This document shows, piece by piece, positions 3,839 through 4,507 of a stretch of DNA of 18,303 nucleotides. The position numbers and the translations under genes were made by a program. The DNA is taken from positions 1 to 18,303 of the forward strand of contig JAFQII010000205.1 in assembly GCA_017397605.1 (NCBI GenBank), in the 5' to 3' direction. Each line of letters begins with the position of its first letter. Positions within the stretch are counted from its first letter, which is position 1. This DNA comes from Clostridia bacterium (GTDB lineage: Bacteria > Bacillota > Clostridia > Oscillospirales > CAG-382). The notes beneath the pieces are model-generated. The model saw nothing but the letters and a program-made list of their open reading frames with translations, had not been told where the DNA came from and searched no databases.

Positions 3839-3875
3839 ATTGTATATCCTTGTTGTTTTATTTCTTTGTTGTAAT

Positions 3876-3979
3876 GCATTGTGCTTGCACAATGCAATTC
3901 ATGCAACTGCGAAGCAGACGCAATTCATGACGGACATTGTCTGTCAATTCATGCAAACGGCTTGCCGTTTGCAATTCAT
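3876..3979. repeat. Left hairpin array with AATTCAT spacers (four units)
   Basis: Four short hairpins are each followed by the heptamer AATTCAT. The hairpins are at 3876-3895 (GCATTGTG/CACAATGC), 3903-3921 (imperfect, core CTGC-GAA-GCAG), 3929-3945 (seven pairs including one G-U, three-base loop) and 3953-3972 (GCAAACGGC/GCCGTTTGC). The heptamers are at 3896-3902, 3922-3928, 3946-3952 and 3973-3979, spaced 24 to 27 bases apart, with a slightly longer consensus CAATTCATG. The hairpin stems differ in sequence while the spacers do not, so structure and spacer appear to be what is conserved. The last heptamer touches the stop codon of the four-helix-bundle gene. The array lies in the 5' region of iorA and mirrors the right array at 4400-4503. 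Confidence 0.9.
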
Positions 3980-4342
3980 TCACTCATTGCAAGCTGTTCC
4001 TTTTGCCGTATTGATGGATGAGATCAAAAGTTTGCGAATCTTACTGCATTTTTCAAACATAACATCGTATTCGCCGGCGGAAATCATCGCGGTATCTTTG
4101 AAAATTGCAAGCCAGTAATCCGTCTCATAGCACTCTTTTAGCGCGATTTGGAATTTGTTGATAAAATCAGCTCTGCTTGCAGCGTAGTTCGCTTCATGGA
4201 TGTTCGCACCTATGCTTGTGCCGCAACGCAAGAGTTGATTTAAAAGCGCATTGCCTTGCTTGCGCTCCTTGATTGCAGTACAAAGTTTCACAGTATCGAC
4301 CGCAAAAGCCCGAGACAGATCGACCAAAAGGTTTTCTTTCAT
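3980..4342 (-). CDS. Four-helix-bundle protein, 23S-rRNA intervening-sequence (S23/IVS) family
   Basis: This is a 120-residue, all-helical protein. It shows the family's recognisable SIGANIHEA segment at about residues 43-51 and the helix ALKECYETDYWL at 67-78, with no membrane segment or signal peptide. Relatives were first described as the ORF inside intervening sequences of Leptospira 23S rRNA and are now found as stand-alone genes; their biochemical role is not established. The ATG at 4342 has an AAGGAT element about ten bases upstream and matches the usual length. The frame stays open upstream to 4498 across the hairpin array, but that extension (with CTACGAIHP) looks like translated repeat. 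The gene is visibly AT-richer than its neighbours and is bracketed by oppositely oriented hairpin arrays. That suggests a cassette acquired into the operon rather than a metabolic partner of iorA. Confidence 0.85.
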   Translation of the reverse strand: MKENLLVDLSRAFAVDTVKLCTAIKERKQGNALLNQLLRCGTSIGANIHEANYAASRADFINKFQIALKECYETDYWLAIFKDTAMISAGEYDVMFEKCSKIRKLLISSINTAKGTACNE

Positions 4343-4399
4343 GCTGATTACATCCTTCGTTAAAACGGCTTTAATCAAAGTTATTCTATCTTTTAGAGG

Positions 4400-4503
4400 A
4401 TGAATTGCACCGCAGGCGGTGCATGAATTGACGCTGCGCATCATGAATTCTCGCAAACGCGCCGCGCTTTGCTCCATGAATTGAATTGCCGCGGGCAATT
4501 CAT
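4400..4503. repeat. Right hairpin array with ATGAATT spacers (inverted relative to left array)
   Basis: ATGAATT, the reverse complement of the left-array heptamer, occurs at 4400-4406, 4423-4429, 4443-4449 and 4476-4482. One AATTCAT lies at 4497-4503. Between the spacers are hairpins at 4407-4422 (GCACCGC-AG-GCGGTGC), 4430-4442 (short, one mismatch), 4450-4475 (GCAAA/TTTGC and CGCG/CGCG with a bulge) and 4483-4501 (GAATTGCC-GCG-GGCAATTC). The array ends four bases before the stop codon of the acyl-CoA synthetase. With the left array it forms two arms in opposite orientation around the four-helix-bundle gene, so the heptamers of one arm could pair with those of the other in RNA or single-stranded DNA. 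Confidence 0.9.
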
Positions 4504-4507
4504 GCGA

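Follow-up and report, generated by a model that had tools for sequence, protein, structure and literature searches.

An 18,303-nucleotide (nt) contig of a Clostridia bacterium of the order Oscillospirales (JAFQII010000205.1, assembly GCA_017397605.1; the whole contig is called the window below) carries at positions 3876–4503 a compact cassette, in which a gene of the S23 family, which first came to notice in intervening sequences (IVSs) of ribosomal RNA (rRNA), is flanked by four copies of AATTCAT with hairpins on one side and four copies of ATGAATT with hairpins on the other. The left array (3896–3979, plus strand) has AATTCAT at 3896, 3922, 3946 and 3973; one hairpin (3876–3895) precedes the first copy, and others lie between the heptamers at 3903–3921 (loop GAA), 3929–3945 and 3953–3972. 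The S23 gene (3980–4342, minus strand) encodes a four-helix-bundle protein of 120 amino acids (PF05635, TIGR02436; Avd-like fold). A leader on the same strand (4343–4399) separates its start from the right array, and the distal part of this leader, CTTTTAGAGG, is also present in a gene-less copy elsewhere in the genome (C269:10399-10640). The right array (4400–4482, minus strand) has ATGAATT, which is AATTCAT on that strand, at 4400, 4423, 4443 and 4476, with hairpins between the copies at 4407–4422, 4430–4442 and 4450–4475; the outermost hairpin, GAATTGCC-GCG-GGCAATTC (4483–4503, minus strand), runs into a last AATTCAT at 4497–4503. Every element of the two arrays and the gene described in an original prediction made from the letters alone was found in its place, and the stems are, as it had stated, unlike one another within the cassette. 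Its description of the arrays as mirror images is right for the heptamers and their orientation and wrong for the hairpins, the left and right sets of which are unrelated. Chance palindromes were rejected on reversed, shuffled and genomic controls: in the genome of origin, which is 61% complete, the pattern AATTCAT-N15..35-AATTCAT has 12 matches, five of them in the window, against none for the reversed control. No known RNA family matched the window at the Rfam gathering score.

The protein belongs to the S23 family by the curated cut-offs of two profiles, TIGR02436 (95.3 bits against 24, E = 2.3e-27) and PF05635 (82.1 bits against 33.8, E = 4.1e-23), and it matches the fold of the solved members. 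This fold is shared with Avd of the diversity-generating retroelements, at a sequence identity of 12%, and with one chain of a reverse transcriptase ribonucleoprotein. Avd binds nucleic acid as a pentamer, and S23 is probably pentameric as well because its solved relatives were deposited with five chains. The gene tables of the fetched plasmid loci name no reverse transcriptase, no search having been aimed at one.

The neighbours of the S23 gene are iorA (TIGR03336, 2093–3838, minus strand) and an acyl-CoA ligase gene. In seven of the 24 genomes of the genus (G002, G006, G009, G010, G015, G019 and G020) these two genes adjoin, with about 20–45 bp from the iorA start to the ligase end and no cassette between them, and the cassette is therefore an insertion; by eye against these empty sites it extends approximately over 3866–4506. 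No second genome was seen to have a cassette at this site. Syntenic iorA loci free of the cassette, the comparison proposed with the original prediction, thus exist, and together with the association described next they bear out its idea of a distinct, inserted cassette in which gene and arrays form one package. Identical S23 copies in G118, G178 and G243 were rejected as a guide to the ends of the element, as they lie within rRNA operons.

Do such arrays accompany S23 genes in general? A set of 207 distinct S23 genes was assembled, 111 from the family (own genome included), 79 from named genome contigs and 17 from viral contigs, and 500 nt upstream and 400 nt downstream were searched for hairpin-heptamer units with at most one mismatch per heptamer and a stem of at least four. 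Three or more units were found near 123 of the 207 genes (70/111, 52/79 and 1/17, respectively), compared with 4 of 414 shuffled sequences and 10 of 259 segments more than 1 kb from an S23 gene, so that at the level of the locus the expected co-occurrence of arrays with four-helix-bundle genes is overwhelming. The array detector was altered three times, with shuffled controls for three of the four runs and genomic controls for two; in the control of an earlier version, the three segments of 90 with at least two units were the window itself and two gene-less copies of its element. Repeats with periods of 4 to 12 were also sought in 400-nt flanks under a strict threshold of 23/28, which was our own choice. 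Period 7 was found at 61 of 135 S23 loci in the non-hairpin sets against 15 of 441 control segments. It was present at 15 of 22 plasmid and phage-record loci (22 of 23, the Monoglobus locus L295 having been missed by the gene finder), these 15 being mostly from Cyanobacteria, with one each from Bacteroidota, Spirochaetota and Chloroflexota; at S23 loci with fewer than three hairpin units it was present in 29 of 68, and in 9 of 16 from viral contigs. It is rare at hairpin loci (2/123), and any other period occurs at no more than one locus per set, with one such locus in the 135. When the threshold was relaxed to 19/28, arrays of period 7 lay on both flanks at 55 of up to 153 loci (the near-identical L342 and L348 both being counted), inverted in 49, direct in 5 and tied in 1, and the words of the two flanks agree within one mismatch in 69%, against 4% when loci are mixed. 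At one locus, L327 (G077:C1:801550-801870), the repeats flanking S23 have a period of 11.

The word follows the protein. On a quick tree of 119 S23 proteins under a simple model, 36 word changes are needed, against at least 82 (mean 89) in 200 shuffles, and the 17 loci with the word of the window lie on one side of one branch; these word, tree and distance analyses leave out 4 of the 123 hairpin loci. The difference between heptamers grows with protein distance (Pearson 0.52; 0 of 500 permutations), and the same word is held by 84% of pairs at a protein distance of 0.1–0.2 and by 62% at 0.2–0.3, the corresponding figures for shared hairpins being 13% and 6%. Judged from these sequences, a word that is kept while the adjoining DNA turns over can hardly be explained by co-inheritance alone. 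As each S23 clade has its own word, binding of paralogues to one another's words could settle the question of recognition.

The genome of the window itself (G000) illustrates this relationship, as four S23 genes were detected in it, each by eye with its own arrays and its own word: AATTCAT in the window, GTGAAAT/ATTTCAC on C126, GTGATAT/ATATCAC at C269:6688 and ACGAAGT/ACTTCAT types on C75. Relatives of the window element that lack the gene are present at C269:10399-10640 and on C195 and C201. In the first, both inner ends of this element are preserved, and window positions 4390–4430 are matched at 98% over 41 nt, as an internal-deletion derivative would be expected to do; a gene-less copy with the ends of an autonomous element also characterizes non-autonomous derivatives of the miniature inverted-repeat transposable element type, the likeness being drawn from this one copy. 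Fifteen hairpin-like matches of ACATCAT were seen on C31, C120, C212, C274 and C287 of the same genome, contigs apart from the four detected S23 genes.

Dispersal is most evident for the word ATTTCAC: the pattern ATTTCAC-N8..30-ATTTCAC has 256 matches in the 24 genus genomes, against 5 for the reversed control, G003 (69), G007 (47) and G014 (32) being rich in it. Among 20 such places that were fetched, one of which (L380) is an S23 remnant below the cut-off, 14 have a detected transfer RNA (tRNA) gene with its 3′ side facing the array at a distance of 32 to 68 nt. The S23 genes themselves have the same preference. Within 500 nt upstream a tRNA gene ends in 89 of 181 cases, always on the same strand and with 15 isotypes represented, and downstream in 2 of 186 (at least 450 nt of flank being required, which excludes 26 and 21 of the 207 genes, respectively); of 53 hairpin loci with a tRNA gene, 42 have their first word 28 to 71 nt past it. 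None of the 16 loci of the window's clade is near a tRNA gene, these rows not being filtered for upstream length. On plasmids, S23 stands between cas2 and cas1, between hsdS and hsdR and between DUF1156 and Swt1-HEPN genes (L333, L338, L295, L297 and L337). Tandem pairs of arrays with no S23 gene, two or three per stretch and some with a terminator-like hairpin between them, were seen at L364, L369 and L381, L369 holding one pair and the start of a second.

Which nucleic acid do the hairpins fold on? When 290 hairpins were oriented by their heptamers, those with unorientable heptamers being dropped, the loops on the heptamer strand were GNA in 111 and TNC in 4, and GNNA in 66 and TNNC in none, with a closing C-G pair in 241, and this asymmetry is the same whichever way the array points with respect to the gene. 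The GNA/GNNA type prevails by 26 to 0 among 33 hairpins of the fetched dispersed copies, which are partly non-independent, against 25 to 21 among 320 background hairpins. Because triloops dominate (173/290) and 29 of 66 GNNA loops have C or T in third place, unlike the GNRA rule of RNA, folding on single-stranded DNA is favoured by these sequences, though not with certainty. The d(GCGAAGC) hairpin is well known for its stability, and d(cGNNAg) and CNNG tetraloops of DNA were reportedly described by Nakano in 2002. d(GNA) triloops closed by C-G are presented in the accessible part of PMC5815330 as a stable DNA motif, kin to the GNRA loops of RNA. Changes in the stems are compensatory in 48 of 115 pairs with two differences, against 2.9 expected, in a set biased by the fact that only folding sequences enter it. 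UNCG tetraloops of RNA, brought to mind by CTTCGG, were rejected, as by eye those hairpins are symmetric around loops of 3 nt.

We consider it probable, at roughly 60%, that the cassette belongs to a widespread class of minimal mobile elements, in which the Avd-like S23 protein binds the heptamers specific to its own clade. This reading is built on the insertion, the S23-linked arrays in several phyla, the clade-specific word and the DNA-type loop asymmetry, together with the dispersed gene-less copies, the preference for tRNA genes and the Avd-like fold; binding, the single-stranded state, the match of pentamer to heptamer and transposition are what we infer from them. An outline of the putative process is as follows: S23, a small helical bundle, would bind the 7-nt word characteristic of its clade; the copies of this word are set in two inverted arrays, mostly head-to-tail with period 7 in loci from other phyla. 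In the lineage of the window, the hairpin between copies would fold on single-stranded DNA and loop out, so that the heptamers come to lie side by side on the protein. S23 would then hold both inverted arrays together as a nucleoprotein, and host replication or repair would place a further copy of the unit elsewhere, many members landing 3′ of tRNA genes, the classic IVSs in helices of rRNA and the window's clade in intergenic gaps. Gene-less copies would have been moved in trans or would be decay products. The window holds a variety of a general S23-heptamer element in which hairpins separate the heptamers; rRNA IVSs are one of the settings in which this general element occurs, and as a mechanism it may be new altogether. 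A bolder version, conceivable and in our view rather doubtful, is a transposase-free new class of mobile element spanning several phyla, in which an S23 ring would read single-stranded heptamers, one per subunit with the interposed hairpins looped out, and pair the arrays, after which host machinery would insert the unit at tRNA genes, in rRNA and in operon gaps; if it is true, rRNA IVSs and many unexplained bacterial heptamer repeats would be traces of such elements.

Several observations weigh against a mobile S23-heptamer element. No actual movement was seen, comparison by eye with the seven empty sites gave no clear target-site duplication at the window copy, and the Y1 transposase (PF01797) was mostly not found. 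Fewer than three hairpin units were detected at 84 of the 207 S23 genes, 46 of which fail the strict period-7 test as well; in the Bacillota sample 8 of 29 S23 loci pass this test and 21 fail. The detected heptamers number 2 to 4 in 263 of 276 arrays, a lower bound, rather than a clean 5. In the fold comparison, Avd scores only modestly above unrelated helical bundles, and loops of the GNA type closed by C-G are stable in DNA and RNA alike (PMC5815330, accessible part). The tie between arrays and S23 genes, which stands at the level of the locus, lacks statistical support at that of the genome, where S23-positive and S23-less genomes among the 24 do not differ significantly (p = 0.26). Two of the five genus genomes with no detected S23, G020 and G022, have 43 and 26 matches, these genome-level counts being pattern matches of four words, some of which are not hairpins; the genomes are drafts in which contigs can end at repeats, and 5 of the 9 G003 regions that were fetched are cut off by a contig end. 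G044, G045 and G057 have ATTTAGC arrays, although none of their analysed S23 loci was assigned this word, and in the genus ATTTAGC has 11 matches, equal to the 11 of its reversed control.

Could the arrays instead act as RNA? Once transcribed, the two arrays would base-pair to give a long, branched stem that RNase III cleaves, S23 would bind the RNA, and the element would persist because it is excisable from any transcript. This alternative, which we regard as unlikely, draws on the S23 loci inside 23S rRNA. Seven were found (L313, L321, L342, L344, L348, L354 and L360), and in four of them (L313, L342, L348 and L360) period-7 arrays lie on both sides, some of them inverted, with the repeats plain at the insert ends, so that the proposed link with IVSs holds for some S23 genes. 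The window resembles these IVSs in the protein family and in the S23 reading frame placed between complementary ends, which in the window are inverted heptamers whose stem is interrupted by hairpins; it differs in lying outside rRNA and in having its heptamers separated by hairpins with DNA-type loops. According to the accessible part of PMC4990558, the Coxiella IVS has three tandem GACAGAT heptamers before its S23 frame, their copy number varies among strains, the IVS is cut by RNase III, and older ideas of IVSs as mobile elements are quoted. RNA is favoured also by the fold common to a chain of a reverse transcriptase ribonucleoprotein, by the sense-strand preference for the 3′ side of tRNA genes and by the positions of S23 between neighbouring genes. 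Against it, the loop asymmetry tracks the heptamer strand in both orientations, whereas in any single transcript only one of the arrays would have loops of the favoured type, and the abundance of triloops and of pyrimidines in GNNA is unlike RNA. Furthermore, 61 of 206 genes have a promoter-like site in the 90 nt before the start of S23 (12/206 in shuffled sequences; 13/202 downstream), which would leave the upstream arrays outside the message. As for the suggestion of an IVS moved out of rRNA, the evidence gives no direction of movement.

It is quite improbable that the arrays are repeats like the repetitive extragenic palindromic (REP) sequences, spread by another enzyme, with S23 as a passenger or an autoregulatory user. 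REP sequences have a short tag, hairpins, inverted pairs and dispersed copies without a gene. The window element is like them and the bacterial interspersed mosaic elements in its short conserved tag with hairpins, its inverted pairs and its gene-less dispersed copies; unlike the pairing of REP with REP-associated tyrosine transposases (RAYTs), it has a 7-nt tag on both sides of each hairpin, and its protein is a helical bundle. Array units far exceed S23 genes in some genomes (69 ATTTCAC units and 3 S23 genes in G003), and arrays occur in genomes with no detected S23, both of which speak for another enzyme. However, the Y1 transposase, the one transposase family tested, is present in 5 of the 24 genus genomes, own included, and was not found in the array-rich G003, G006, G007 and G014 (72–99% complete) or in G004 and G006 (97–99% complete), both of which have S23 genes and arrays; the copy in the window's genome lies on C180, where the four word patterns find no array. 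Moreover, the word agrees with the S23 tree much more closely than the adjacent hairpins do, and the association of S23 with arrays holds in several phyla. A tag of the GTAG/CGTC type, named for REP in the title of PMC3733652, is in none of the 30 words examined of 36. Membership in REP/RAYT was rejected on the unlinked Y1 transposase and the missing tag, and the REP/RAYT logic of the original prediction survives as an analogy only. Less credible still is that heptamers expanded by slippage near any small intergenic gene with no recognition by S23, as tandem repeats are known to expand and as the strain variation of Coxiella might suggest, since the period is almost only 7, at S23 genes as in the 15 of 441 control segments with repeats (which were not matched small genes), the word is particular to the locus and in most cases common to its two flanks, where it is inverted, and hairpin-separated words are beyond simple slippage.

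The proposed mobile S23-heptamer element would also bear on bacterial heptamer repeats at large. Those of Cyanobacteria, reportedly described by Mazel in 1990 as short tandemly repeated repetitive sequences, of Beggiatoaceae (TAACTGA) and of Xanthomonas (GGGAATC) are like the S23 arrays in their 7-nt period and mostly intergenic position. In its accessible part, PMC4679880 suggests an unknown repeat-binding protein as a possible mobile element and names candidate binders only from other families (S1, Csp, Csr), and that of PMC4692102 reports an excess of heptamer repeats in many bacterial genomes and the lack of a detailed literature on them; text searches of the two papers for S23 and for four helix gave no match. 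No literature generally linking S23 to heptamer or hairpin arrays was found in open-licence PMC, which is weak evidence of novelty, and in the literature found, heptamer repeats and IVSs are described separately and joined only in the Coxiella case. S23 is thus a candidate binding protein for bacterial heptamer repeats, and rRNA IVSs are tied to elements elsewhere in genomes. The S23-heptamer pairing, in which every branch of the family has a different word and which occurs in several phyla, points to a class of mobile DNA that has attracted little notice, and it provides a testable rule for a very large orphan family, with at least 7999 S23 relatives among the matches listed.

A few further observations were made. 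Repeats of a terminator arm were noticed by eye at a few copies, and none at the window copy; at L031, L048, L049 and C269:10399 an extra arm of a terminator hairpin lies beyond the first array or beyond the element, which looks as if the terminator had been the insertion point. S23 matches also lie inside open frames of 1775 and 1753 amino acids (G299:C1:175017-175274 and G077:C1:47499-47753, respectively). Finally, contigs of Akkermansia metagenome-assembled genomes (L235, L271 and L272) carry S23 with hairpin arrays of CGATATC or CTTCACC, a case of either horizontal transfer or mis-binning.
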